Source: a virus
Reading direction: 5' to 3' (one strand)
Virus record (IMG/VR): IMGVR_UViG_3300012954_000040
Coordinates: 1-32,268 of that record
DNA length: 32,268 bases
Shown: positions 6,918 through 22,591 of the stretch, in pieces
Layout: every line of letters starts with the position of its first letter
Position numbering within the stretch: position 1 is the stretch's first letter
Program-made: the position numbers and the translations under genes
The notes under the pieces: model-generated
Databases searched by the model: none
The model's input: only the letters and a program-made list of their open reading frames with translations
Told to the model about the DNA's origin: nothing

Positions 6918-6956
6918 GTTACTACCCAGTCTACCGTATGGTTTTATTCTCTTATC

Positions 6957-6963
6957 TATTTAG
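6957..6963 (-). promoter_or_regulatory. T4-type late promoter box CTAAATA upstream of the left-edge gene
   Basis: On the minus strand the sequence just after the TGA of the 171-aa gene reads TGCTAAATAG, containing CTAAATA at 6963-6957. Its last base is 40 nt before the ATG at 6917. It resembles the T4 late consensus TATAAATA and is identical to the box before the DUF4815 gene. T4 late promoters need no -35 element, so its absence is expected. Promoter activity is inferred. Confidence 0.6.
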
Positions 6964-7488: not shown

Positions 7489-10400
7489 TTACCTCTTGGT
7501 GATGGTTTTTACAAAGGTGATTTCTACATTATCATTCAGTCCCAAATTAGAGTCCAAAGTAACTGTAATTCTAGAGTTATTTAAACCATCAATGTCAAAG
7601 GTTGCTGAAATAATATCAACACCTGTTTTAATATTATTAATTTCGGTGTAGTAGAGATCAGTACCATCATCGATTACATTGTATTCAATAATCTCCTTAT
7701 CACCAGTAGTAGTGTTGACAGCGGTAACTAGAACTTTACCAGAAGACTCGGTAGATAGATTATACAGAGTGGCATTACCAGCAGCACCTGATTGTCTAGT
7801 GAGAGAAAGTCTTGAAGTATTCAATCTGAAGTGATTGAGATCTAGGTTAGTAAGTTCGTCATCCAGTAGAGTGATATTGTCTGGAGTACCTGTGGTGAAT
7901 CCTAGGTTAAAGATAACATCACCAGTATTTGTTAGTCTAAACAGATGATCGTTGTTGAGACCAGAAGAAAGACCAATATCAAGTTTATCTCTTGTGGAGT
8001 AGATGAAAGTAGTATCAGCAGCAGTGTGATCAACATTCAACGATAGACTAGAGATTCCTAGAGTCTCAGCATCGATATTCATTACCTCGCTTACAGACTC
8101 GAAGGTATCGATGGTGTCTAGTGTCAACGCTGTTCCAGACAACCTCATGGTGTTACTGCCACCATTGAAGAAGTAAAGAATATCTTCGTCAGCGTTGGGA
8201 GCAGTCTCAGGCATAATCTTGGTATCCTGGTCAATATCCTTGACGCCACCAAGACCGCCCCACTGAGCGCCGTTGTATCCTTCAAACTGACTGTCGTCAG
8301 TGTTATATCTAACAGAACCCTGGATAGGATTACCTTTAGAGTTGTTGTCTCCTACAGGAAGAACAAGAGAAGATTGACAATCAATCTGTACCTTCTGACT
8401 TCCATTAGGACTGATAACAATATCGTTAGTGATCGAGGAGAAAGTATTTCCAGAGAACTTCAGTTCACCGTTAACCGAAAGAGCAGTGAATCCCAGAGGA
8501 TCAATCTTAACTTCGGAGATCTCTTCAAAAGTTAGTGGAGAAACAGCAGAGATATACCAAGTTAGAGTTACATCTCCGTTAGTAGCATCGCCACTGGTAT
8601 GAATTGGTTCACTACCAGAGACTGCTAGCAAGTTGATACCACCAGAATTAGCAACCGCTGTTACCTCGTAAATATTATTCTGATACTTGAGGTAATCTCC
8701 CAACTGAACTGGTGCTTGAGCAGCCCAATCAGTATATGTTGGAGCAGCAATGTTTGGAGATCTTACCTTCTTGACATTGACAAACTCTAGGTAAGTTGGA
8801 GAAACTTTGAGTGTGTTTACATTATCATTGATAAACCACAGAGTATTATCGTTTGCCCCGACAGTTTCTTCGGCAAGAATTGTTGTATTACCATCTAGGT
8901 CTCTAACGCCACCAAGAGAAGACCATTGAGCATTAGTAGAACTATAACCTTCGTAGGAGTTAGTTTCGGTATTGAATCTAATAGCACCATCTTGAGCGAT
9001 TGGAGTATTAGGACGTTGACCTGTAGTACCAGTAGGAATAACCAAAGCGGTACTGGTTTCCACCTTAGCAACTCTGTTCAAAGCAGGAACAAGAGTGATG
9101 TCGTTAGTTCCTGTAGTGGTAATTTCGTTATCAGCAATAGTAAGAATATTGTTGATATTCAAACCAGAGTTTGCTCTAACATTACCCTGTGTAACCAAGT
9201 TACCATCAGTGTTGCCAATAGTAAGTTTGCTATCTCCAACCGTTACATTACCTTCAATGGTAAGAGCAGGAGAATCTAATACTAAAGTGCTAGCAGATTC
9301 AATTTCAGGAGCAATAACTTTCTGCTGTACATTAATAGTTTTTGTTGAGATTAAAGTGTCTACAGTAAGATCATCAACAGTTCCAGTCTCGATGTCAATA
9401 TCTTGAGCAACTACTCTGCCGTTTAGTACGTCCAATGTAATTACATCTTGATCAGAAACATTGATAAGAGTAACTACCAATCCACTACCAAAAGAATTTG
9501 GGTTGTTTGGATCAATAGTTAGTGTAGCACTACCACCCATTCCAGCATGACTGGATGTACTATCCGATCCACCAGAAGTACAGAAGTAATAGAGTGTACT
9601 AGGGGTGTTTGCTGTGACCTTAATTCTAAGACCTTCGCCAACGTTTACTACACCATCGGTGTAAGGAACACCAGCAAATGTTAGTGTTGCTGCTCCACTA
9701 CCAGTTGGGTTGTCGGATAGAGTTAGTGTTGTAGCACTATCAACTGACTCGACGGTAGTATCTAGAGATAGAGTACCATCACCACTAGCAGTGATTGCCA
9801 TTCCAGGGAAAATACCACTAGTGGAAGCAACCGTAATTTGAGTCTGTGAAGCAGTAAGAGTTGTAGCAACATTTTCTACTACATTATATGTTCCACCATC
9901 ATAAGCACTTAGAGCGAAGTTATGACTACCGTTCGATGAATCTTCAGTATTGAATAGGTATGTGCTGCCAACATAAAGAGTTAGGTTTGGATGAATTGTT
10001 CCATCAATATAAAACTTACTTTTATCTGCTACTGTGTCAACTTCGATTGTAGTAGCACTTCCTTGTTTGTTAATATCAACACCACTACTAGCACCAAGAG
10101 ACTCTACTAGAATCTTAGTAATATCACCACCGACTTCAGTTACTTCGATGACCTCTCCAGTAACAGCAGAAAGACCATCATCATATTCCATGGTATCACC
10201 AACAGAAATAAATCCTGCTGCTGGTCTATCACTGACTACAAAGACAATCTCTTGGAAGTCTTGAACAGTTACTACACGTGTAATTGGTTGTACTAGATTT
10301 GTACCGTCTACAGTTAGGTTGTCTAATCTAGAGTAACCGTTACCACCATTATCTACCTGGACAAGTTCTACAGCACCAACAGAACCAACAGTATATTCAA

Positions 10401-12345
10401 AACTAGTAGATGGAGTGCTCCATGGTGGAATGAATGTTAGAGTTACAGCTCCAGCATCGTCAGCATCAGTGCTAAGTGTGATGGTGTTAGTTTGATCATC
10501 GATAGACTGTACTGTTGTTCCCGTTGGGATTGATCCAGCACCTGTTGCTGTGACAAAGAAACCTACACCGATACCAGCGAGACTTGAAACTACGATCTCA
10601 TTGTCACTACCATCGGAAGTAAATGTCAACGATGCTGATCCAGCAGTAGTTGGTGCTTGATCGATAGTAATTGTATTACCAGAAACGTTAGTTACAACGG
10701 TTCCTTCTGCTACTTGACCAGTCTCCAAAATAGAAGATGATACTACCTGACCAACAGCAATGCCTTGGGAAGTAGAAACGCTGAAAGAAGTTCCTGCTCC
10801 CAGAGTAACTGCTAAATCAGAAACCGTTCCGTTAGTAGTACCAGTTACTCCAGTAACATTAGTACCAAGTCCTAATACATCTCCTACTTGATACCCACTT
10901 CCTTTTACATCAAAAGTAATACTGTTTACTTGTCCAGGATTTGTAGTAATCGTGTATTGGAATCCACTACCGCCACCACCACCGAGATCTGAGTCAGCAG
11001 CAGACAGAACATCATCCTTTAGATATCCACTACCTTGATCATTAACTGTGACTGAGGATACAACACCAGTGAAAGCAATTGCTGATAGGGTATAGAGGAA
11101 TCCAGAACCACCAGACAAACTAGACTGGACATCACCATTGTTGACAATCAGTGTATCACCGACTTCGTAATCTGAACCAGCATCGGTAATAGTTACAGCA
11201 GTAACAGCACCACTAGCAATCTCAATGGTAGCTTGCATGCCTTTACCACCGTTGCCAGGAGTTCCTGCTTGTACAGAAATGGTGTTACCCATTCCAGAGT
11301 GAACCTGACAGACATAAGTGATAGTTTCTGTAGCGGCACCAGGACCGACAGTGAGATACAAAGCAGCGCCAGCATTTCCTTGAGCGCCTACTTCAATAAT
11401 AGTATAGTGCTCGTTACCTAGTTGAAGTCCACCAGCATCTGCTAGAGCAAATGGGTGACCAGAAAGAGTAGAACTGCTTAGATCAAATTTATATGTGTTG
11501 CCCTTCTCAAAGGTAAGGGTAGGATTATTCAGACTGTTAATCTGGAAAATATTGTTTGGTGGAGGAGTACCAGGATTAGATACAACAGTGACAGTATATG
11601 TCGATGCTGGTTCGTTAATCAGATTTACATCACTGTAGACACCATCGGTGTAACTAGTACCAGCAGAAGTGATGTTACCTGAGAATACAGTATCACCAGA
11701 TACGATGATATCTGCTATAGCACTAGATCCGTTACCGCCTGTTAGTGGGACATCGTTATAAATTCCAGGGGTATATGCTGAACCCTCAGTAGTGATATCA
11801 CCATTGATACCATCAATTTCTACTGTAGCTTCTGCTCCAGTGCCATTACCACCAGTGAGTAGAACATTGGAATAGGTGCCACCATTATATCCATTACCAT
11901 TATTAGTAATGGTTCCGACAAATTCGGTTACTTCGATATCAAATGTAGCGCCCTCACCTGTACCACCTAGAACAGCAATATCTTCATAACTTCCTGGATC
12001 ATAGTTTGCTCCAGGGTTAGTTACTTCAATATCACTAGATGAGATAACACGCTTCTGAACAATTAGATTCTTATAGTTAACTTGACCAGCAGTTGTAATA
12101 TCAAAGAGATTCTTTCCAGCAGATACAAAACCAATACTACCAGTTGACGGTCTGAAAATACCTAGAGATCCTTCGTTGATGAACGATAGAGACGGCACAC
12201 CTCGGGTGCCATCCCCCAACTTCAGATTACCTGTGGACAGGTCACTACCACCTTGAGAGATCGAGAACAAGTTTGCTCCAATCTCGTTGATCTTTTGCCT
12301 TTGAGACTCAAAGGTGTCTGTTCTACTAACGTTAATTGCTGGCAT
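7489..12345 (-). CDS. Large fibre-like baseplate protein in the gp9/gp10 position, with two cupredoxin-like domains (1618 aa)
   Basis: The N-terminus (MPAINVSRTDTFESQRQKIN, then LSTGNLKLGDG) matches large cyanophage tail proteins and loosely recalls the docking N-termini of T4 gp9 and gp10. Order of parts: four GxxYxxGxYxxVxLxGG repeats (about 107-246); a cupredoxin-like domain (about 265-358) with His297, Cys346, His349 and Met352; GxGYxxGD repeats (385-490 and 665-680); two related beta modules (about 512-637); a second cupredoxin-like domain (about 778-945; His808, Cys922, His933, Met936) interrupted by a third such beta module (827-891); a duplicated segment with a YEGY/FEGY motif and LGGV (about 1110-1180 and 1340-1400); and a C-terminal beta domain ending VEITFVKTITKR, loosely like the end of T4 gp9. 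Its ATG overlaps the 66-aa gene by 14 bases; AGAGAG lies upstream. The gp9/10 role is positional inference. Confidence 0.93.
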   Translation of the reverse strand: MPAINVSRTDTFESQRQKINEIGANLFSISQGGSDLSTGNLKLGDGTRGVPSLSFINEGSLGIFRPSTGSIGFVSAGKNLFDITTAGQVNYKNLIVQKRVISSSDIEVTNPGANYDPGSYEDIAVLGGTGEGATFDIEVTEFVGTITNNGNGYNGGTYSNVLLTGGNGTGAEATVEIDGINGDITTEGSAYTPGIYNDVPLTGGNGSSAIADIIVSGDTVFSGNITSAGTSYTDGVYSDVNLINEPASTYTVTVVSNPGTPPPNNIFQINSLNNPTLTFEKGNTYKFDLSSSTLSGHPFALADAGGLQLGNEHYTIIEVGAQGNAGAALYLTVGPGAATETITYVCQVHSGMGNTISVQAGTPGNGGKGMQATIEIASGAVTAVTITDAGSDYEVGDTLIVNNGDVQSSLSGGSGFLYTLSAIAFTGVVSSVTVNDQGSGYLKDDVLSAADSDLGGGGGSGFQYTITTNPGQVNSITFDVKGSGYQVGDVLGLGTNVTGVTGTTNGTVSDLAVTLGAGTSFSVSTSQGIAVGQVVSSSILETGQVAEGTVVTNVSGNTITIDQAPTTAGSASLTFTSDGSDNEIVVSSLAGIGVGFFVTATGAGSIPTGTTVQSIDDQTNTITLSTDADDAGAVTLTFIPPWSTPSTSFEYTVGSVGAVELVQVDNGGNGYSRLDNLTVDGTNLVQPITRVVTVQDFQEIVFVVSDRPAAGFISVGDTMEYDDGLSAVTGEVIEVTEVGGDITKILVESLGASSGVDINKQGSATTIEVDTVADKSKFYIDGTIHPNLTLYVGSTYLFNTEDSSNGSHNFALSAYDGGTYNVVENVATTLTASQTQITVASTSGIFPGMAITASGDGTLSLDTTVESVDSATTLTLSDNPTGSGAATLTFAGVPYTDGVVNVGEGLRIKVTANTPSTLYYFCTSGGSDSTSSHAGMGGSATLTIDPNNPNSFGSGLVVTLINVSDQDVITLDVLNGRVVAQDIDIETGTVDDLTVDTLISTKTINVQQKVIAPEIESASTLVLDSPALTIEGNVTVGDSKLTIGNTDGNLVTQGNVRANSGLNINNILTIADNEITTTGTNDITLVPALNRVAKVETSTALVIPTGTTGQRPNTPIAQDGAIRFNTETNSYEGYSSTNAQWSSLGGVRDLDGNTTILAEETVGANDNTLWFINDNVNTLKVSPTYLEFVNVKKVRSPNIAAPTYTDWAAQAPVQLGDYLKYQNNIYEVTAVANSGGINLLAVSGSEPIHTSGDATNGDVTLTWYISAVSPLTFEEISEVKIDPLGFTALSVNGELKFSGNTFSSITNDIVISPNGSQKVQIDCQSSLVLPVGDNNSKGNPIQGSVRYNTDDSQFEGYNGAQWGGLGGVKDIDQDTKIMPETAPNADEDILYFFNGGSNTMRLSGTALTLDTIDTFESVSEVMNIDAETLGISSLSLNVDHTAADTTFIYSTRDKLDIGLSSGLNNDHLFRLTNTGDVIFNLGFTTGTPDNITLLDDELTNLDLNHFRLNTSRLSLTRQSGAAGNATLYNLSTESSGKVLVTAVNTTTGDKEIIEYNVIDDGTDLYYTEINNIKTGVDIISATFDIDGLNNSRITVTLDSNLGLNDNVEITFVKTITKR
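7491..7496 (-). promoter_or_regulatory. Shine-Dalgarno AGAGGT for the 171-aa gene
   Basis: The minus strand reads AGAGGTAAACAATAAATG. AGAGGT overlaps the TAA stop codon (7491-7489) of the upstream gene and lies 9 nt before the ATG at 7481. It fixes this ATG as the start. Confidence 0.7.
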
Positions 12346-12532
12346 TTCTTACGATCTCTCTAAGAAGTAGTTTGATTTCAGATAGTTCTTCCTTCAAAGT
12401 ATTTATGTCTTCTAGCGCATTGTTAAATGTACGAGAAAAGTTTCTAGGAGCGGGTTTGTCAGTATTGACAATCGCTCCTGTATGGACATCACGATAAAGA
12501 TTTTCGTGACCCTCAACTTTTAGGTATCTCAT
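12332..12532 (-). CDS. Small coiled-coil protein between the large structural genes (66 aa)
   Basis: The product starts MRYLKVEGHENLYRDVHTGA and ends with a predicted amphipathic helix (ALEDINTLKEELSEIKLLL). The EGHxxLxRDxxTxAIxNT opening is one I recognise from small conserved hypothetical proteins in cyanophage structural clusters, with no known function. Its ATG shares one base with the TGA of the DUF4815 gene (TGATG, base 12532), and its TAA lies 14 bases inside the next gene, in another frame. No strong Shine-Dalgarno is visible, so translation by coupling is likely. The short globular head plus coiled coil could suit a trimerisation or assembly role beside its giant neighbours, but that is a guess. 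Position and overlaps support a real gene. Confidence 0.85.
   Translation of the reverse strand: MRYLKVEGHENLYRDVHTGAIVNTDKPAPRNFSRTFNNALEDINTLKEELSEIKLLLREIVRNASN
12400..12407 (-). promoter_or_regulatory. Possible late promoter box CATAAATA for the 1618-aa gene
   Basis: CATAAATA lies at 12407-12400 on the minus strand, inside the 66-aa coding sequence and 55 nt before the ATG at 12345. It differs from TATAAATA at the first base only. Because it is in coding sequence it could be chance, but its distance to the next gene is close to that of the intergenic boxes (37-40 nt). Confidence 0.4.
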
Positions 12533-15500
12533 CAGTATGAAGCTACAGCTCTTAGATCTTGAATCTTGGGCACGTATGAAGGATCATCAGTTTTCATGAT
12601 AATCTTGATAGCGAAAGATGTAAACTCAGGTAGATTAGAAGCACTGAATGTCAGTTCTTGATAATCTGTTTGCTTCTCAAACTGTCCTGAAATGGAGTTT
12701 GCTGGAGTAGCAAGATTGTTTACATCTGGGTTACCATCTACATTGAATGGAACCCAATTAATATCATCGAAGTTAGCAGAACTAGAAGACTCTCTAAGTT
12801 TATAGTAAATCTTAACGTTCTCGATGTCTGTAAGATTCATTGTAGATCTTACGTCGATGGCAGAACCAGCATTGTCAATGAATACTTCCTTAGTTACATA
12901 CTTAGCAACCGAAGAACTATTTACAGCATCTGTTTCTGGAACATAGTCAACACCAGTCGTGTATTCGATGGTATTGATCTCGATGAATTTTGGATCGTCA
13001 TCACCAGTAGATTGAACTACATCACCAATCCTGAAAATGTCAGGTTGCTGTTGAGCATCATCTTGATTTCTGGTGTATGCTGCTCCGTCTGCTGTCTTAG
13101 CAGTGTAATTATTATTAATGGGTTGATAAGAGTTTTCCACAATCAGAATCTTATCTTCGGCATCCCATAGGATGACCTTACCATTAATCTTATTAGCGTA
13201 ACTTACACCAGCATCTGTTGGCGAATAAGCAATAACATTAGAACCAACACTGAAGTTGAAATCAATTTCAGAAATAGTGGTAATAGTAATACCAACGTTA
13301 GAGATTGGGATGCCATCTGTACCAATTAGAGTTAGAGACTCACCCTGTTGGAATGGAGTGATAGTTCTCAGTCTAATGGTAGCGTTGTTGTTGGTGTAAG
13401 CAGTAATGAAACCTTCTGCTTTAGAAGTTTGACCAACCAATGAAAGGTTCTGATCAATCTGTCCAGCGTTGGTTCCTGTTACAGCAAGAGCGAGTGTGTA
13501 CAGAGGTTGGAATCTAACAATCTGATCTCTCTTACCATATCTATCTTCATAACCAGTAGCATTTTCAATTCTATTGCTAGCAGTCTTGACAGTAGCAGTA
13601 CGTAGATCAATAACAGGTGATAGAACGGAAGTTTCTGAAGACAACTTAAACTTATACTTCAATGAATGGGGTAGACCATTCATGGTCTGGTTGATTCTGG
13701 AAGCAATAACTTTTTGGTTAGTGAAGAAGTGCTCTTCACCAAGGAAAGTCTTCTCGTAATCAACGTAACTATATGAGGTATAGTTCTTAGTATTGGAATC
13801 AACAGGTACTACATCAGTAGTAGCAACAAACGATTCAATCTTAGTGCCATCTAGTTGTAGGTATGGAACCTGAGCATACAGACGCTCAAACTTTCTGTTG
13901 TAAGAAGCAAGAACCGAGTTACCACCACCAATGATGCTAGAACCAGCACCGTTTGGACTTGTGATGTTGTAAGTATCAATACCAGAGTTGGAAACTTTGT
14001 ATAGTCTTTGATTCAAAGTAACACCAGAAATACCACCGACATCTTTTGCTTCTTGGAAGAATACATAAGAGTTTCCAACATCTTCAAAACCATTGTCTCT
14101 GTGATAGACCTTGACAATCGAGTTGTTGTTCTTGAATAGTGTTGAGGTAGCATTAGTAGCAGATCTTACACTAGTCTCAAAAGGAGATACCAGTAGTTTT
14201 TCGTAACCTAGGTTCTCGTTAGTAACTTCAATCTCACCACCTACAGTTTCAAACTCAGCACGATACATGATGAATTTGATGTCTTCAAATAGATCCTCGG
14301 TCCAGTCATCAGTGTTCTGAGACTTGTACACAGAACCTAGAGAAGGTTGTGTGGTTACAATGTTACTGGTAGAAATTTCTTCCTGACCCAATACTGATGC
14401 CCATAGTTCATATTCGATAGAATCGGTTTCGATGGTTAGAGCATACTCAGTATTGTTTTGGAGATATACAGGATGCTTGAAGTCGAATCTAGTTGGAGTG
14501 GTAGATTCTGTTACACCATCATAATCAACAGCAACACCCATTCTTACAGCAGGCGTATCGATTTCGATTACAGATTCGATAACAGCACCAGCAGCACCAA
14601 GACCTACACCCTTAACAACAACTGATGGTGGTTCGGTGTAACCCCTTCCAGTAAGCGAAACCTCACAGTTGTATACCTTGCCATCGGAGACAGAGATAGA
14701 ACCTGTTGCTGAGGATCCACCAGGCAACTGAGGACTTTCTATGACAATGGAAGCAGTCTCGTAGTTGTCACCAACAGAACTAACCTTCAGGTCAGTAACT
14801 TTACCAGAATCCTTAGCGATAAAGACGCCTAGGGTTGTGTTGTTTCTAGCGTTGTATGCTGTGATAGAAGGAATCGTCAACGACTCGTTTGCTACAAACT
14901 TAGTTCCATTGTGGTTGCTAAGAACAAGAGTATAAACTTGCTCTTTGTTCATCTGGAATGAACTGCTGGTGTCATCACCAACTCTTACCAGATTAGAGTC
15001 AAATACCTTAGCAATAGGACCAGAGGCATTGGATGTCTTACCTGTTACGAACTCATCGAGAGCAACAGTAACAGTTTCAGCTTCTCCTGTGACATATACT
15101 CTTAGATATGTTTCTGGAGTCAGTGATACTTGTGTACCAGGAATGATGTTCTTGCCTGGTTTGCCAGCAGCAACGTCAGTTAGATATGCTCTAATTGGAA
15201 TAGTCTCACTCTTCTTATTAAAGAAGAGATCAACACCAGTGGTCATCAAACCACCGTCAAAGTTCTCAATCTTAAATGTCTGAGCAAGTGGATTGGGTTT
15301 GACTGGGTTATCAGTGTTGCTGTCAACCAACTGTACACCTTCATTTGCTTTGAAGAAGGAAGTAGCAGTAGATGTGATGCTAGGTGGATTGGAAGGAGTA
15401 GTACCAGAAGCATAGAACTTAACTTCAGCATAGGTATCAACTTCATTCTTGTCAGCATCATCAGAAGCAGATGTAAATCTAATGGTCTTTGTACCAGTAG

Positions 15501-18500
15501 AAAGTCTGATCTCTTCTCCAGTCTGATCGTAATCAACAGTATCTACGTTGCCAGTCCATCTAGTATTAGATACTGGAGGTAGACCAGCAGGAACTAGAAT
15601 GATGCCAGACAGGTTACCATTGGAATCAGTAACTAGAGGAGCACCGAAGGTAGACAGAGAGTTACCTGCCTTACCACTGAAGCGACTATCAGGAACAACA
15701 TAACGTCCAATGTTACGTCCTTCCATGAAGACATAAACAGCAGTATCAGGCTTCAGTCTGTTCATTACAAACTTGATGGGGATCGATCTAGCAAAGAACT
15801 GTAGAGAAGTAGCAACTTTCTTGTCGCCAACGGTCTTGGTGGAAACACCTTTACCTACTTCATTGTTCTGTGGACTTACATTAGAAGAACTAGCAATAGA
15901 AGCAGATTCAACTGTGGATTCAATGTCCTCACTGTTAATGTTAGCAAGAGATTCGATGGGTAGGATACCAGCATCAGTACCACACCAGTTAACGATGAAT
16001 GAGTTGTAGATGCTAGAGTAAGCATCTGCCACAATATCCTTCGCTAGGAAGATGGAGTTCAGTTTCGTATTGGAATCAACAACCAAAGGAGCAATGCCTT
16101 GATCATACCAGGAATCTTGCTGAGGTTCAATTACACCTTCGCCAACATACTGGATGACAACAAATGGGTTGGGGTTGATGGTCTTAGTAGCGTTCTTATT
16201 GCTCAGTAGTTCTACATTGCTGAAAGGCAGTGTAACAACACCATCATTAATTACATATCCATCGACTGCTCTCTGGTCATCTCTAGTATTGATCTCTTTT
16301 AGAACAAAACTATCTTCTTTAGACTGTGCTCTTAGAACAGACTGCTGAGTGTCAATAGCACATCTATAGTCCTCGGACTTGAGGTTACCAGTTCTGTGTG
16401 CTTCAAAGTTATCTACAAGGAAACCAGACTTGAATCTATCAAGACCAATTTCGTCCTTGACTTGCATGTTTAGTGCTTGCTGCTCAAGGATGCTTAGAGT
16501 GGTGTAATACTCAAGACGCTCGATACGCTTCTCCAACTTACCGATGTCCTTCATGGTATAACGCTTGTTATCCACAGGAACGATTCTTACATCTTTGCTG
16601 CTATTAGTATAAGCAGGGATGTGGAGATAGCAAAGAGAAACAGCATCATCTACTGGTTCTGGTTTGGATGGGTTTAGCGAAGCATTACCTTCCTTGATAA
16701 TGAAGTCGCCTTTCTTCGTGAGGAATAGACCATCAATACGATCCAGGTACTGCTTCTCACTGAAGGAGACAGTGTAAGGTAGATTGAAGTCAGGAGCAGG
16801 AGTTCCTGTTGGGATACCACCAGTTCCTAGGAAAGTGATGTAGTCAGTGCTGTCAAATCTCTCGACAATAGACTGATCTTGGAAACCAGTAATGGTAGTA
16901 TTACCGTCAACCTTAGGTCTGAAGTCGATAGAGTCTCTAAGAGAGATGACACCATTAACAGTAGAGTTGAATAGAGGAATCTCATCAGGTAGGACACCTG
17001 CTTCATGAAGATACGAGTCAACAGTACAGAAGTCACCCTGAGAATGCTCGAAGAAGTCAAACGCTGCTACTAGTTGACCAGTAGGAGCATCAAAACCAGG
17101 CTTCAATACAATTCTAGAGACATCATAGTATGTGTCTCTCTGTCCATTGTCAAACTTAAACTTGTAGGTTACATCAGTACCACTAACTAGATTACCAGCA
17201 GTATCAACTACAGGTGGGTTGGTGGTTGTACCTTCATAGACATACTTCAGTTTGAATACGTCAGAATAGGAGAAGGTTTCGATGACATCAGAATCATAAT
17301 CCTGACCTCTTAGAGGAATTACACGGTCACCAGAAGAGATGATGATAATACGCTTGTTCCTGATAGCACTCTTGAGTCTAGGACGTGCCTTGTCGATCTC
17401 AACTGTAGCAGTCAGTTTTAGTTTTGGATAGTTACCATCTAGAATGTTACCGAAGTAATCTGATGGGAGATCCTTGATTCTTAGAGCACCAGCAGTTACG
17501 CTACTAGCAGTGATCACTGAATCGGTTACTTCAATATATCTTGGATCGATGAATACAACGTCACCGTTTTCCACAACAGAGGAAGATCCTTTGCTTAGAA
17601 CAGTAACAATGAACTGCTCTTCACTGAAACTAACAAACTTCTGTGTACCAACAGGGAGTTGAGCAGTAAAGGTTAGGTTGCCACCACTAGCAGATAGATC
17701 CGTAACAAAATCCTTTCTTACATGATACTTAAACTTGGTATCAGAAGAATCGTTAACTAGAGATGCTACTTGCTTGCTACCAGTTGGGAATACCAGAGTA
17801 GCAGCACTATTAGATAGTCTAGGACGTAATCTTACAATAGTGGCATTATTAATGTCAGCAGGTAGAGCATAGTCTAGATAGATTCTAGATTTCTGTGTGT
17901 CCTGTGGTAGTGTGACATACTGTACAATGTTCTTAATAACGTTATTGTTGGCGTCAGTAAACTGGATGATGTCACCTTGAATCAGGTCACCAGTTAGATC
18001 AGCACCAAAACCATTACATTCGATAAACTTAAATCCATTATTACCGAAGAAGGTAAAGTCACTGATTTGCTTGTAGGTAGCATAAGAAGTTGACGAGAAG
18101 TCAACGTCAGCAGTGAACGTGTAGTTATTGAATGTAGACGATAGTGACTTCACATTCTGAGGAGTGAAAGTCAGTACAGTGTCCTTGAATAGAACAGGAA
18201 CAACAGTTGCCTTGTCGCCATTAGCTTCATCACCAGTAAATCCAATTGTTGGTGGGGTAGCATAAGTCTGTTGTAGAGCACTTCTGTCTTCTACACTGAC
18301 TACAACTACAGAACCACCATACAAGACGATACCAACTTTAGATTGATCGAAGGTTGTACCATTGATCACCATCTGTGAAGACGATGTGTAATTAGTACCT
18401 CTCTTTGTCACAATAAAGTGTGAGATGGTATTCTCTTTAGCAATCTTGATGGCGTTGTTCTCTTCATCAATGATTGTCTCACCAGGAATGAATTGACCTG

Positions 18501-20604
18501 ACAATGTGGTTACAAACAACGTAGAGATGCCACTGAATTGACCCTCAGTGTCATTTTCAATTACACCGTATGCCTTACTTTCCTTACCGTAGATGTACTT
18601 ACCATTCTTGAAAGTCTGGGCAATGATTTCTTTCTCTAGTTTTAGTCTAGTGAAGAAGACGGGATTGAAGTATGAGAAACCAAACGTAGCATTGTATGGA
18701 GTATTAGATCCTGTTCTACCTCTAGAGAGGATGATGTCAGAATCGGGATTGAATCCGTTGCCTCTATTGATTAGTCTGAAGTTCTTTGGTTTTGATACAC
18801 CAACGATAGGAGTAAACGATGGGTTGTAGTCAACAACTAGACCATAAGGACTAGAAGAAGTCTCCATCTGTGTTTGAGAAGTGTAGATATACCTTCTGTA
18901 GTCTGTCTCATCATTATCAAACTCCTTCATGTACTTGTCTAGGTCACCTTTGTTACCTAGAATTGTAAGTTCACCGAAGTATGCTGAGTTAGCACTATTA
19001 ACCTCTGGACGGTTGACAACTGCCTTACCGATTACCTTAGCACTCTTACCATTGATAGTTCCAGTTCCTCTGGTTGTGACAAAAAAGATTTCGTCAGGAA
19101 GTTGGGAGGTTTGTGTTGGAACATCACCAAGAGCCTGAACATAAATGGTCATGATACCTTGTTCTAGACCAAATGCTTCAGATCTTCTGCTGACAGAATC
19201 TCTAAAGTATCCATCTGGTTCTAGACCTGAGAATCCAATCGTACCATCATTGAATACACTGTTTAGAGAAACAGTTGGGTATCCAGTAAGTTCATCACCA
19301 ACGGTGTTTAGAGGGACACTACCATAAACGTTGGTAATATTGAACTCAGGAAGACCCTTCGACTTGATAGTTACATTGTCACGGGATAGGGTATCTCTAC
19401 CTTTACTTACCTCAAGAGTCTTAGTCTCTTTATTGATAATTTCATATCCTTTGACATATGCCTTACCAGAACTTACAGACAAGACCATCTTGCCTTCTGC
19501 TTCTACTGCCGAATACTTTCTGTTTACTAGACCAGTCTCATTGCTGAGGGCATACACACCATTGTTACCAGTTCTCTGGTAATACTCTCTAACATCGTAG
19601 TCGAAATCTTCTACAACGTAATCGCCAGACTCATCAAATGTTCTTCTTGCTAGAGTCTCTTCTAGTAGGGTATAATCTGCCGATTTAATTTGCTTCTCTA
19701 CAGTTCCGTTCTTGATCTGAACCAACTGGATGAAGTTTTTATCAGTATTAGCAGAATAATCAAACTTAGTAAGGTTTAGATTAATGCTAAGACGATGAGC
19801 ACCAGGAGCAGAAGAGTTAGAGAAACCTCTGGCATTATCTGCTAGTGAAGTGTCCTCCTCAGGAGTAACAATATCTTCGCTAACAGTAAAACCGACTTTT
19901 GCTGATGCTTTGTTATAATATTTGTTAATAATCAGTAGTTGTTTTGGATTTCTTACAAAGAAACCGTTAACAAAGTACACACCTTCCTGTACATCTACAG
20001 CAGTAGCAAAGCCCATGGCACGACTACCCAAGGTAGTGATGTTGCCTGAAGTAGGATCTTCTACATTAATACTGGTAGGGAGTACGCTACCATCTGTACC
20101 GACGACAAGTAGAGGAGTATTGATACCAGCGATAACTTCTAGCGTTTCACCTTGTCTGAAGGTGGTTTCGTTACTAGCAGCGCCACTAGTGGTATATTTT
20201 ACGAACAATGTATCTGCTTCAATGTCTGACCCGTACTCAGCACTTAGTACGCGCCCAACAACTCCAGAGTTTAGACCCTGGAGTTGTGTTCCAACCAATT
20301 TTTTAATATCGTATTTCTTGTAAACGATCTGTCCGCCTTCGTTTACGGCGACTTCGGATACAGAGGATAACTTGACATAATCGAGCTTGGTATTAAGTCC
20401 AACCTCTCCAGGGATGACTTGCTGTCCCTGCTTGAAGTTGAACTTACCAAAACTTTCAATTTGATTCTGGAGAATCGACTGTAGAGAAGTTAGTTCTCTA
20501 GTCTGGATCGAGTATCCAGGTCTGAACAAAACTTTATAAAAGTTTTTGCCAGAATCGTAGTCATCATAATATGGTGCTACGTTAAGATTCGTCTTTTGTG
20601 GCAT
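12532..20604 (-). CDS. DUF4815-family giant virion structural protein (2690 aa)
   Basis: The start MPQKTNLNVAPYYDDYDSGK, followed by FYKVLFRPGYSIQTRELTSL and QNQIESFGKFNFKQG, is the hallmark N-terminus of DUF4815 phage structural proteins. Other family signatures: MKDIGKLEKRIERLEYYT (about residues 1350-1400, coiled-coil-like); IPIKFVMNRLKPDTAVYVF with LVTDSNGNLSGIILVPAG (about 1605-1680); NPLAQTFKI (about 1770); and a C-terminus reading VPKIQDLRAVASY. GxGY-type motifs (NRGNGFNPDSD, VGDNYETAS, GRGYTEPPS) are inserted along the chain. The ATG is preceded by GGCGGAGTAAC, a good Shine-Dalgarno lying in one arm of an inverted repeat. Position after gp8 suggests a baseplate or tail-periphery component; function is not established. 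No enzymatic motif was seen. The stop overlaps the next start by one base. Confidence 0.95.
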   Translation of the reverse strand: MPQKTNLNVAPYYDDYDSGKNFYKVLFRPGYSIQTRELTSLQSILQNQIESFGKFNFKQGQQVIPGEVGLNTKLDYVKLSSVSEVAVNEGGQIVYKKYDIKKLVGTQLQGLNSGVVGRVLSAEYGSDIEADTLFVKYTTSGAASNETTFRQGETLEVIAGINTPLLVVGTDGSVLPTSINVEDPTSGNITTLGSRAMGFATAVDVQEGVYFVNGFFVRNPKQLLIINKYYNKASAKVGFTVSEDIVTPEEDTSLADNARGFSNSSAPGAHRLSINLNLTKFDYSANTDKNFIQLVQIKNGTVEKQIKSADYTLLEETLARRTFDESGDYVVEDFDYDVREYYQRTGNNGVYALSNETGLVNRKYSAVEAEGKMVLSVSSGKAYVKGYEIINKETKTLEVSKGRDTLSRDNVTIKSKGLPEFNITNVYGSVPLNTVGDELTGYPTVSLNSVFNDGTIGFSGLEPDGYFRDSVSRRSEAFGLEQGIMTIYVQALGDVPTQTSQLPDEIFFVTTRGTGTINGKSAKVIGKAVVNRPEVNSANSAYFGELTILGNKGDLDKYMKEFDNDETDYRRYIYTSQTQMETSSSPYGLVVDYNPSFTPIVGVSKPKNFRLINRGNGFNPDSDIILSRGRTGSNTPYNATFGFSYFNPVFFTRLKLEKEIIAQTFKNGKYIYGKESKAYGVIENDTEGQFSGISTLFVTTLSGQFIPGETIIDEENNAIKIAKENTISHFIVTKRGTNYTSSSQMVINGTTFDQSKVGIVLYGGSVVVVSVEDRSALQQTYATPPTIGFTGDEANGDKATVVPVLFKDTVLTFTPQNVKSLSSTFNNYTFTADVDFSSTSYATYKQISDFTFFGNNGFKFIECNGFGADLTGDLIQGDIIQFTDANNNVIKNIVQYVTLPQDTQKSRIYLDYALPADINNATIVRLRPRLSNSAATLVFPTGSKQVASLVNDSSDTKFKYHVRKDFVTDLSASGGNLTFTAQLPVGTQKFVSFSEEQFIVTVLSKGSSSVVENGDVVFIDPRYIEVTDSVITASSVTAGALRIKDLPSDYFGNILDGNYPKLKLTATVEIDKARPRLKSAIRNKRIIIISSGDRVIPLRGQDYDSDVIETFSYSDVFKLKYVYEGTTTNPPVVDTAGNLVSGTDVTYKFKFDNGQRDTYYDVSRIVLKPGFDAPTGQLVAAFDFFEHSQGDFCTVDSYLHEAGVLPDEIPLFNSTVNGVISLRDSIDFRPKVDGNTTITGFQDQSIVERFDSTDYITFLGTGGIPTGTPAPDFNLPYTVSFSEKQYLDRIDGLFLTKKGDFIIKEGNASLNPSKPEPVDDAVSLCYLHIPAYTNSSKDVRIVPVDNKRYTMKDIGKLEKRIERLEYYTTLSILEQQALNMQVKDEIGLDRFKSGFLVDNFEAHRTGNLKSEDYRCAIDTQQSVLRAQSKEDSFVLKEINTRDDQRAVDGYVINDGVVTLPFSNVELLSNKNATKTINPNPFVVIQYVGEGVIEPQQDSWYDQGIAPLVVDSNTKLNSIFLAKDIVADAYSSIYNSFIVNWCGTDAGILPIESLANINSEDIESTVESASIASSSNVSPQNNEVGKGVSTKTVGDKKVATSLQFFARSIPIKFVMNRLKPDTAVYVFMEGRNIGRYVVPDSRFSGKAGNSLSTFGAPLVTDSNGNLSGIILVPAGLPPVSNTRWTGNVDTVDYDQTGEEIRLSTGTKTIRFTSASDDADKNEVDTYAEVKFYASGTTPSNPPSITSTATSFFKANEGVQLVDSNTDNPVKPNPLAQTFKIENFDGGLMTTGVDLFFNKKSETIPIRAYLTDVAAGKPGKNIIPGTQVSLTPETYLRVYVTGEAETVTVALDEFVTGKTSNASGPIAKVFDSNLVRVGDDTSSSFQMNKEQVYTLVLSNHNGTKFVANESLTIPSITAYNARNNTTLGVFIAKDSGKVTDLKVSSVGDNYETASIVIESPQLPGGSSATGSISVSDGKVYNCEVSLTGRGYTEPPSVVVKGVGLGAAGAVIESVIEIDTPAVRMGVAVDYDGVTESTTPTRFDFKHPVYLQNNTEYALTIETDSIEYELWASVLGQEEISTSNIVTTQPSLGSVYKSQNTDDWTEDLFEDIKFIMYRAEFETVGGEIEVTNENLGYEKLLVSPFETSVRSATNATSTLFKNNNSIVKVYHRDNGFEDVGNSYVFFQEAKDVGGISGVTLNQRLYKVSNSGIDTYNITSPNGAGSSIIGGGNSVLASYNRKFERLYAQVPYLQLDGTKIESFVATTDVVPVDSNTKNYTSYSYVDYEKTFLGEEHFFTNQKVIASRINQTMNGLPHSLKYKFKLSSETSVLSPVIDLRTATVKTASNRIENATGYEDRYGKRDQIVRFQPLYTLALAVTGTNAGQIDQNLSLVGQTSKAEGFITAYTNNNATIRLRTITPFQQGESLTLIGTDGIPISNVGITITTISEIDFNFSVGSNVIAYSPTDAGVSYANKINGKVILWDAEDKILIVENSYQPINNNYTAKTADGAAYTRNQDDAQQQPDIFRIGDVVQSTGDDDPKFIEINTIEYTTGVDYVPETDAVNSSSVAKYVTKEVFIDNAGSAIDVRSTMNLTDIENVKIYYKLRESSSSANFDDINWVPFNVDGNPDVNNLATPANSISGQFEKQTDYQELTFSASNLPEFTSFAIKIIMKTDDPSYVPKIQDLRAVASY

Positions 20605-20605
20605 G

Positions 20606-20655
20606 TTACTCCGCCAAATACTCTACATTGTTCGTTGAAGTATTTAGCGGAGTAA
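20606..20655 (-). promoter_or_regulatory. 17-bp inverted repeat holding a late promoter box and the Shine-Dalgarno of the DUF4815 gene
   Basis: On the plus strand, ttactccgccaaatact (20606-20622) and agtatttagcggagtaa (20639-20655) are inverted copies with one difference, separated by 16 bases. In minus-strand RNA the difference becomes a G-U pair, so all 17 positions can pair. The 3' arm ends one base before ATG 20604 and contains GGCGGAG (20615-20609), the Shine-Dalgarno. The 5' arm contains CTAAATA (20647-20641). A full-length hairpin would therefore block ribosome binding. A transcript starting about 6 nt after the box would begin inside the loop and lack the blocking arm. The structure is visible; the regulation is inferred. 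Confidence 0.75.
20641..20647 (-). promoter_or_regulatory. Late promoter box CTAAATA upstream of the DUF4815 gene
   Basis: CTAAATA lies 36 nt before the ATG at 20604, in the 59-base gap after gp8. It matches the box before the left-edge gene and is one of the variants expected for gp55-type late sigma recognition. It sits in the upstream arm of the inverted repeat. Confidence 0.62.
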
Positions 20656-20663
20656 AAAAGAAA

Positions 20664-22541
20664 TCAGAACTCAATAACGAGTTTGATATCTTCAATCTGG
20701 TCAGCAGCACGGGTGATGAGACGACGGTTCTCAACGTAGATGATCTCACCAGAGTTGTTACCGATCTCAGGAGTGGCAAGACCACTAGCGAAAGTAACAC
20801 CTACGAGCGTGTCGTTACTGGTAGCATCGACAGTACCAGAAGCAAGGGACTGAGCACCAGAGATAGCGTTACCACTGTTCTCGAAGTCTCTTACAACACC
20901 AGCATCGGTGTGGAGTGAAGGCGACTGGATGTACTTAAGTACACCAGCACCACCAGGACCAGCGTTACCAGCATCTCTTTCCCAAGAGACGACAGTACCG
21001 ATAGCAGTACCACCAGCGGCAGCAGTCTGTGAAATTACTTCGTCAGCAACGAAGTCAGCAGTAGCACCAGTGACTTTAACAGCATATACACCACTTAGGG
21101 TAGGAGCGGTAGCGAAAGTAGTACCACCAGCAGCAAATGGGTCACGGATAATACCGATACGACGGAAGTCGTTGTCAACAGGGAAGTCGCCAGAACCTTC
21201 AGCGTAGGTTAGACGGATGTTCGTCATAACACGCTTGCCGTTGAGTTCTTCTTCAAAGTTGGAACCATGACCACCTTGAGGAGGAAGAACTACTTCCATA
21301 GCACCAGTAGCGTTAGCAGGAACAACGTTAGAGGTCTTGGTTGTTAGACCAGCATCGGTGTAAAGACCTACAGGAGCACCAGTCCAACCTGGATCGCCGT
21401 TCTCAAGACCATCTTGGAGAGGAACGGTAGCATAGGTGTAACCAGAACCAGGGTTAGATACGGTTACAGCGGTAAGAGCACCACCAGCAACGGTGATTTC
21501 TACAATACCACCAGTACCATCACCAACAATAGGAGCATAGTACGTACCGTTGGTAAGACCCTGACCAGCGTTCTCGATTAGAACAACGTTGATTGAGTTA
21601 GGATCAGCGGTAGCAATTGCTTCGGTTGCCTGACGGGAAGCGTTCGCTGGAAGAACGATAGGCATGAAGTCAGTAGAGAGGAAACGTAGTACGTCATCGG
21701 TTGGGATGGTGTACATGTACTTCCAGATATAACCGTTAGCAGCAGGATCTTCGGTGAAGATTCCAGTAGCACTGGTGTAAGTACCTTGACCGCCAGAAGG
21801 AGTAGTCTTAGGCTCGTTAGTAGCAGTTTGACCAGTAGGGTTAGCAGGGTTCTCTCCGTTATAGAGACACTTGAATACTTCGTACTGGGAGTTAACTAGG
21901 TAATACTTGGCATCAGCAATGTTGGTAGCACCAGTAGCAGATGCTTTACCAATTTGACCACCACTACCAGGAGTAGTAGAATAGTCAGGCTTCCACATGT
22001 CAAACTTAGGGTTAGCAGCGGTATCCCAGTTGAAACGACGGATTACGCTACGAGCAAAGTCGGTGGTGATACGCTTAGCAGCAATGATGTCGTCATAAAC
22101 ATCATACTTCTCGGTTTGGTTGTCGAGGGGTACAGGGGGAACGTCCTCTGTAGCGTAACGGTAAACGCCAGTCAATGCTTCAGCATTGGTGTCGGCAGTA
22201 CCATTCCAACCTTTCAGTGCTTGACCAGCGGTAGGAACAGAATTGGTCTGTGGTCCTACGCTGTGAAGGAGGAGGGAATTTTCGTAAACAGCTCTAATAG
22301 TAGCTTTGAAGGTGGCGGAAGCGTAGTTAGCGCCGATATAAACTTCATCGCCAGCTACAAAAGCAGTAGCATTAGCATTGAAAATTTCAAGGTAAGCATC
22401 CCATCTTTGGGGACGACCCACGAAGAAATACATCCTCGTTCTTTCAGCAGAAGTGTCTGCGCCGCCACTGGGCTCAGACAACGACTCAAGGAATTGGGTG
22501 GCGTTAAAAATTCTAAACTTATCTGAGATAATGGCAGCCAT
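20664..22541 (-). CDS. 8: Baseplate wedge subunit gp8 (625 aa)
   Basis: gp8 is a core wedge component of T4-like baseplates. Matches to T4 gp8, recalled from memory: ISDKFRIFNATQFLES at the N-terminus (T4 VTSKFRTEKMLNFYNS); MYFFVGRPQRWD (T4 IFITFGRSEPWS); SVIRRFNWDTAANP (T4 AVIPRRDWGDTRYP); GYIWKYMYTIPTDD (T4 GYVWEYLFEIPPD); RIGIIRDPF; and the C-terminus NSGEIIYVENRR then AADQIEDIKLVIEF (T4 HSGEMIYMENRP, MDQTEEINILFTF). At 625 aa it is nearly twice T4 gp8 (334 aa). The extra mass is mostly a module at about 54-103, a GxGY insertion near 362-400 and a Gly/Ala-rich segment near 510-590. A double TATAAATA lies upstream. Two hand-counted lines have 50% and 55% GC, above the neighbouring genes. 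The start is favoured by alignment with T4 and by promoter position; the Shine-Dalgarno (CGAGAG) is modest. Confidence 0.95.
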   Translation of the reverse strand: MAAIISDKFRIFNATQFLESLSEPSGGADTSAERTRMYFFVGRPQRWDAYLEIFNANATAFVAGDEVYIGANYASATFKATIRAVYENSLLLHSVGPQTNSVPTAGQALKGWNGTADTNAEALTGVYRYATEDVPPVPLDNQTEKYDVYDDIIAAKRITTDFARSVIRRFNWDTAANPKFDMWKPDYSTTPGSGGQIGKASATGATNIADAKYYLVNSQYEVFKCLYNGENPANPTGQTATNEPKTTPSGGQGTYTSATGIFTEDPAANGYIWKYMYTIPTDDVLRFLSTDFMPIVLPANASRQATEAIATADPNSINVVLIENAGQGLTNGTYYAPIVGDGTGGIVEITVAGGALTAVTVSNPGSGYTYATVPLQDGLENGDPGWTGAPVGLYTDAGLTTKTSNVVPANATGAMEVVLPPQGGHGSNFEEELNGKRVMTNIRLTYAEGSGDFPVDNDFRRIGIIRDPFAAGGTTFATAPTLSGVYAVKVTGATADFVADEVISQTAAAGGTAIGTVVSWERDAGNAGPGGAGVLKYIQSPSLHTDAGVVRDFENSGNAISGAQSLASGTVDATSNDTLVGVTFASGLATPEIGNNSGEIIYVENRRLITRAADQIEDIKLVIEF

Positions 22542-22577: not shown

Positions 22578-22591
22578 TATTTATATTTATA
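22578..22591 (-). promoter_or_regulatory. Double T4 late promoter box (TATAAATA twice) upstream of gp8
   Basis: The minus strand reads TATAAATATAAATA: two copies of the exact T4 late consensus at 22591-22584 and 22585-22578, overlapping by two bases. The upstream copy covers the TAA stop (22589-22587) of the gp7-position gene. The downstream copy ends 37 nt from the gp8 ATG at 22541. This is the best promoter in the window. Confidence 0.8.

Follow-up and report, generated by a model that had tools for sequence, protein, structure and literature searches.

Translation that depends on where a message begins is established for genes e, soc, 49, and I-TevI of phage T4 (PMC3014915) and has been described for segB and for mobE of phage Aeh1 (PMC2988022). 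In gene e, long transcripts hide the Shine-Dalgarno (SD) sequence in a stem, and the late promoter lies in the DNA that specifies the 5' strand of that stem, which late transcripts therefore lack; early transcripts are thereby silenced against early lysis, an effect measured at approximately 100-fold (PMC3014915). The stems of soc and 49, genes carried on long polycistronic RNA, follow the same principle and are named without detail in that source (PMC3014915). In the homing endonuclease genes I-TevI and segB of T4 and mobE of Aeh1, which sit inside early or middle units, read-through RNA folds into a stem that sequesters the ribosome-binding site, and the RNA made from the I-TevI late promoter is unable to form this stem (PMC2988022).

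The box of a T4 late promoter occupies 8 bp, from -13 to -6, with its last A at -6. At -13/-12, the Aeh1 late box carries a/gC instead of TA, so that its last A is also at -6 (PMC2988020), and the late box of cyanophage S-PM2 is NATAAATA (PMC2984593). An inverted repeat is likewise present in a cyanophage 5' untranslated region at a gene with a late promoter, psbA of S-PM2, but this is a different gene, and the authors suggest a role in mRNA stability or light regulation (PMC5931967). Our literature search found no cyanophage report of a start-dependent gate or stem of the T4 kind and no map of cyanophage late start sites.

Here, we describe a layout that has been established experimentally for T4 e and I-TevI (PMC3014915, PMC2988022), situated between the genes for gp8 and a DUF4815 protein in an IMG/VR virus record whose nearest relatives are T4-like cyanophages (Kyanoviridae). 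The window referred to throughout is the whole stretch of DNA that was analyzed, 32,268 bases in length. As in gene e, long transcripts would hide the SD and a late promoter lies in the DNA for the 5' strand of the stem, and as in I-TevI, RNA from that promoter is predicted not to form the stem. Unlike in gene e, silencing is here predicted from sequence; unlike in e, soc, and 49, the upstream gene is itself late and structural, and relatives swap the stem for a terminator; and in contrast to the endonuclease genes, the gene that would be gated encodes a giant virion protein and follows a late gene.

RESULTS

The gp8/DUF4815 junction

The gp8 stop codon (which ends at 20664) and the DUF4815 ATG (20604-20602, minus strand) are separated by 59 nt, which read TTTCTTTT TTACTCCGCTAAATACT TCAACGAACAATGTAG AGTATTTGGCGGAGTAA C on the sense strand. 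An inverted repeat takes up 50 of these 59 nt, starting 9 nt past the gp8 stop, with arms of 17 positions that are 94% complementary around a 16-nt loop; the sole mismatch, T20646 against G20615, is read as U-G in the sense RNA and still pairs. GGCGGAG (20615-20609) lies in the 3' arm, whose end is separated from the ATG by a single base, and the 5' arm contains a T4-type late box (Table 1). An earlier, sequence-only reading of this DNA had proposed that the repeat, with its single G-U pair and 16-nt loop, fills most of the gap, with the SD within the 3' arm and the box CTAAATA within the 5' arm, and the coordinates bear out each of these details.

No other inverted repeat in the 32-kb window combines arms of 14 nt or longer with complementarity of 90% or more and spacing below 60 nt, and the two-arm sequence pattern of this repeat is expected 0.00 times by chance. 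The junction RNA (minus strand) folds at -34.7 kcal/mol, compared with a mean of -15.6 for shuffled sequences (z = -6.92; 0/200 shuffles). No Rfam covariance model matched the window at its gathering score.

Relatives of the DUF4815 protein are annotated as structural or virulence-associated proteins. Since the DUF4815 gene, the 66-aa gene, and the 1,618-aa gene overlap in series, the gate might act on three proteins: the two smaller genes may be gated indirectly, through a series of translational couplings headed by the DUF4815 start. The next structural gene downstream has a late box, CTAAATAG, at 6956-6962 (minus strand), about 45 nt before its ATG and without a comparable stem.

Table 1. 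Features of the junction and neighboring genes (window coordinates)
Feature	Position	Strand	Basis
gp8 (baseplate wedge subunit), upstream gene	20664..22541	minus	ORF; PHROG phrog_438, E 4e-171
DUF4815 gene, 2690 aa, presumed tail/baseplate structural protein, putatively gated	12532..20604	minus	Pfam PF16075, E 1.8e-47; PHROG phrog_358
66-aa virion structural gene, ATG overlaps DUF4815 stop (TGATG)	12332..12532	minus	PHROG phrog_473; sequence
1618-aa virion structural gene, 14-nt overlap with 66-aa gene	7489..12345	minus	PHROG phrog_6005; sequence
Late boxes TATAAATATAAATA just 5' of gp8, without comparable stem	22578..22589	minus	sequence
5' stem arm, TTACTCCGCTAAATACT	20639..20655	minus	inverted repeat; fold
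T4-type late promoter box GCTAAATA within 5' arm (CTAAATA = 20647-20641)	20641..20648	minus	sequence; T4-family consensus
Loop; predicted late transcription start ~20635	20623..20638	minus	fold; T4 late geometry
3' arm, AGTATTTGGCGGAGTAA, contains SD	20606..20622	minus	inverted repeat
SD core GGAG, 4 nt 5' of ATG	20609..20612	minus	sequence

Predicted start site and switch

The sequence GCTAAATA fits the late consensus of the T4 family (PMC2988020, PMC2984593), and applying the T4 geometry to this box (20648-20641) places the predicted start at about 20635, within the loop and one base from the position (about 20634) put forward in the sequence-only reading. To express how accessible the start codon would be in different messages, we varied the 5' end of the RNA and for each one predicted the energy required to unfold the start region, positions -15 to +3; we call this energy the opening cost. 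According to these folding predictions, 5' ends at 20654 or upstream carry a cost of 23-25 kcal/mol; the cost drops steeply across 5' ends from 20652 to 20642 and is 6.7-6.9 kcal/mol for 5' ends from 20640 to 20630 (6.9 kcal/mol at 20638-20630); because it is constantly low over this last interval, the switch would tolerate a start site misplaced by several bases. By both predicted fold and opening cost, the SD is paired in longer RNA initiated upstream, whereas RNA begun at the position set by the late box would lack the 5' strand and leave the SD open (6.9 kcal/mol at 20635). The core of the sequence-only reading, an SD hidden in gp8 read-through and exposed in the local transcript, is as a prediction well supported by these computations and by the comparisons below.

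Such a stem is not a general property of late promoters, a possibility ruled out by a near relative with a complete stem. In this near-complete genome (198 kb scanned), the junction alone, among 28 late-box-plus-ORF sites, has a z score below -3, and it shows the largest change in accessibility; the median z of the other late-box sites is near 0.

Junction designs among relatives

Scans of IMG/VR together with phage records yielded 334 gp8/DUF4815 junctions, 163 of them distinct, nearly all of which belong to one of three designs. (A degenerate-pattern scan of viral contigs returned mostly chance matches in coding sequence, and the real ones were gp8/DUF4815 junctions only.)

(i) Design P has a late box and no terminator and includes 56 distinct junctions. 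Five of these, the S-PM2/Syn1 type, carry another palindrome, and most of the remaining 51 have a 5' arm and an SD arm that are complementary, although in some terminator-less relatives (L020, L112, L080, and L316) the stem is weak. The complete stem was seen only in uncultured viruses and in none of the phages found in the isolate collection. Two contigs, L246 and L292, have an insertion of about 160 nt right after the gp8 stop, which ends in a repeat of its TTCTAG-like starting sequence, and keep the stem and late box beyond it; the insertion is carried by those two contigs only and matched neither Rfam nor phage records. The different palindrome is present in L165 (S-PM2), L049, L056, and L058 and in the isolates Syn1, S-RIM32, and S-H9-2; in its fullest form, CCTAACCTCCTAAATAAGGTTAGG, the late box lies in the loop of a 10-bp stem and the SD is uncovered.

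(ii) In design T, gp8 is separated from the late box by an intrinsic terminator, often of the form CCCCCGA-loop-TCGGGGG-T8; this design includes 64 distinct junctions, 58 of which have the same type of SD arm. Terminator and late box occur together at this junction in S-RSM4, S-H9-1, S-B43, S-WAM2, and the ACG-2014 phages. These junctions resemble the one in the window in their place, late box, and type of 3' half and presumably also uncouple DUF4815 from gp8, but they would stop RNA rather than translation, and their pairing adjacent to the box is interrupted.

(iii) Design C, with 42 of the 163 distinct junctions, has no box, terminator, or stem in a gap of 23-47 nt, and DUF4815 must be translated from a message begun upstream, presumably that of gp8. 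In four box-less junctions of 23-31 nt (L120, L123, L139, and L158, L013-type records), the SD region is partly paired in read-through RNA.

Median opening costs in read-through RNA are 14.5 kcal/mol for P, 11.7 for T, and 4.7 for C; in locally started RNA, they are 6.6 kcal/mol for P and 6.5 for T. Opening energies and arm pairing were used in place of accessibility averaged over -14 to -4, which blurred the design classes.

Conservation of pairing

Complementarity to the SD arm sets these late boxes apart from others: of the 6 nt that precede the box, all 6 match the SD arm in 29 of the 51 terminator-less junctions and 5 do so in another 14 (43/51 at 5 or 6), compared with 0 and 4, respectively, of 86 other late boxes. 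Across the 41 distinct P sequences that were aligned, TAAATA is invariant, and 80% of the cells in the ten lower pairs hold a standard pair, a share that falls to 21-49% if the arms are slid by 1 to 3 columns. Two-sided changes occur at four pairs, a count reached by 17/500 shuffles, and the covariation score is reached by 3/500. Variants that preserve pairing include CTCTGC/GTGGAG, CTTCGC/GCGAGG, a longer stem in L132, and the TTTTACCC/GGGGTAAAA stem of L041; pairing is also kept through U-G changes, with C-G replaced by U-G in several relatives. The excess of G-U over A-C in the lower stem, a possible signature of the RNA strand, is only 11 versus 7 among distinct arms and was not used as evidence. 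The compensatory changes for which the sequence-only reading had proposed searching are present in part: pairing is maintained, with some two-sided changes and wobble, but covariation, though real, is modest, since the SD and the box constrain most positions, and in other relatives a terminator replaces the full stem.

Exchange of stem and terminator

The pairs beside the box (three pairs scored) are all complete in 45 of the 51 P junctions and in 0 of the 58 T junctions. That the stem is wholly missing from terminator-bearing phages is ruled out by folding, which shows it to be interrupted; because the upper stem and part of the lower stem are retained, we call the change graded. When the terminator label is mapped onto a tree of DUF4815 gene sequence (600 nt), about 11 changes are required, and the independent P/T pairs on well-supported branches all differ in the expected direction (6/6; sign test, p = 0.031); the independent-pair test is not significant (p = 0.25) with extra opening cost split at the median. 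The association may have spread as a few recombining modules, in which case true independent events may be fewer.

Three P/T pairs (L122/L059, L244/L051, and L293/L385) have an identical 41-nt half from box to ATG and differ upstream only. One member has a short complementary 5' flank there; in the other, a terminator is present and the flank is less complementary. Opening costs on the stem and terminator sides are, in the same order, 25.3 and 12.0, 21.8 and 17.8, and 18.1 and 13.7 kcal/mol.

Other roles for the stem

A stable stem of 17 pairs directly 3' of gp8 could instead process or stabilize RNA, either protecting the 3' end of the gp8 mRNA or allowing an RNase III-type cut that separates the gp8 and DUF4815 messages and could itself free the SD. 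Trade with a terminator, which also gives gp8 a 3' end, would agree with this role, but a stem serving it would have no need to overlap the late box and the SD or to keep the box outside the local RNA, and the complementarity is specific to the SD arm; we consider this explanation unlikely.

Translational coupling, in which ribosomes finishing gp8 open the stem such that DUF4815 is made in proportion to gp8, is an improbable account of the junction. Classical cases do use stems that hide a downstream start, and the stem is close to the gp8 stop (9 nt here, with the 5' arm beginning 3 nt after the stop in one clade), but the 5' arm lies outside the coding region, and the distance from the stop to the lower arm varies among 3, 10, 11, and 13 nt and extends to 163-165 nt in two stem-bearing phages. 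Coupling would also leave both the late promoter in the arm and the terminator trade unexplained.

The identity of the stem as an intrinsic terminator is ruled out by the lack of a T-run on the coding strand: the stem is followed by CATGCCACA, without a U-run, and is absent from the list of terminator-like sites from the window scan. It is very unlikely that the stem ends gp8 transcription as an unconventional terminator lacking a U-tract: the host is Rho-less, many cyanobacterial transcript ends are non-canonical, and the stem alternates with a real terminator, but such ends broadly have no strong structure (PMC13289151).

The base facing the box T (20615 versus 20646 in the window) is G, never A, in all 109 box-bearing P and T junctions; an A at 20615 would create an inverted late box pointing into gp8. 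The invariant wobble G would thus keep the RNA stem while avoiding an inverted late box that drives antisense RNA into gp8. It also makes it highly improbable that the repeat acts at the DNA level, as a palindromic operator bound by a protein at the late promoter, with RNA folding playing no role: the box does lie inside the palindrome, and an operator covers the late promoter of T4 I-TevI (PMC2988022), but this G maintains RNA pairing while breaking DNA symmetry, as do the C-G to U-G swaps.

DISCUSSION

In the mechanism that we propose, a read-through message from gp8 would carry both arms, fold into the 17-pair stem, and hide the DUF4815 ribosome-binding site, and a message from the late box in the 5' arm would start in the loop, lack the 5' arm, and be open for translation. 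DUF4815, and possibly the two overlapping downstream genes, would be translated only from its own late promoter, and the stem would insulate DUF4815 from gp8 read-through at a place where many relatives have an intrinsic terminator. We consider it probable that this junction represents, in the Kyanoviridae, a translation gate of the T4 e/soc/I-TevI type that depends on the position of the transcription start. This reading is built on sequence, geometry, predicted folds and opening costs, conserved pairing, uniqueness, and the terminator trade, from which we infer promoter activity, the start site, silencing, and the reason for insulation. Counting against a gate are the short spacing of 4 nt between SD and ATG and the box-less relatives, which manage without insulation and show that it is dispensable in some lineages.

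The sequence-only reading had likened the junction to T4 e, soc, and 49. The principle is real (PMC3014915, PMC2988022), but its purpose in T4, to prevent late proteins from being made from early and middle messages, is unlikely to apply here: gp8 is itself a late structural gene and, given the late boxes just upstream of it, probably has its own late promoter, so the purpose of the gate is probably not timing. Sites resembling sigma-70 promoters are at chance level in the window, and early read-through from far upstream may still occur. The further suggestion of that reading, a gate that would set the ratio of gp8 to DUF4815 in the baseplate, is not supported in the form given; many relatives (42 of 163 distinct junctions) lack both late box and stem and presumably make DUF4815 from the gp8 message. 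Cyanobacteria lack Rho (PMC13289151) and so would have no such factor to truncate read-through RNA that is left untranslated, which offers a plausible reason for built-in insulation.

A broader proposal, whose chances we judge to be even, is that, at this one structural-gene junction of the Kyanoviridae, the SD-hiding stem (acting on translation) and the intrinsic terminator (acting on transcription) are interchangeable insulators that have been swapped repeatedly in evolution. In a Rho-less host lineage, the stem would then tell one late RNA from another, serving insulation or stoichiometry and not timing. The predicted gate would work like those of T4 e and I-TevI, as a candidate rather than a proven member of that group; its new aspects would be late-on-late action and alternation with a terminator.

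The T4 device has been explained as one of timing, and a stem between two late genes, present where the terminator is missing, makes insulation or stoichiometry testable against timing. The pairs with identical box-to-ATG halves are natural constructs for comparing a translational with a transcriptional insulator in a Rho-less host. If the proposed mechanism is true, it would place a post-transcriptional gate on structural genes in an abundant group of marine phages.
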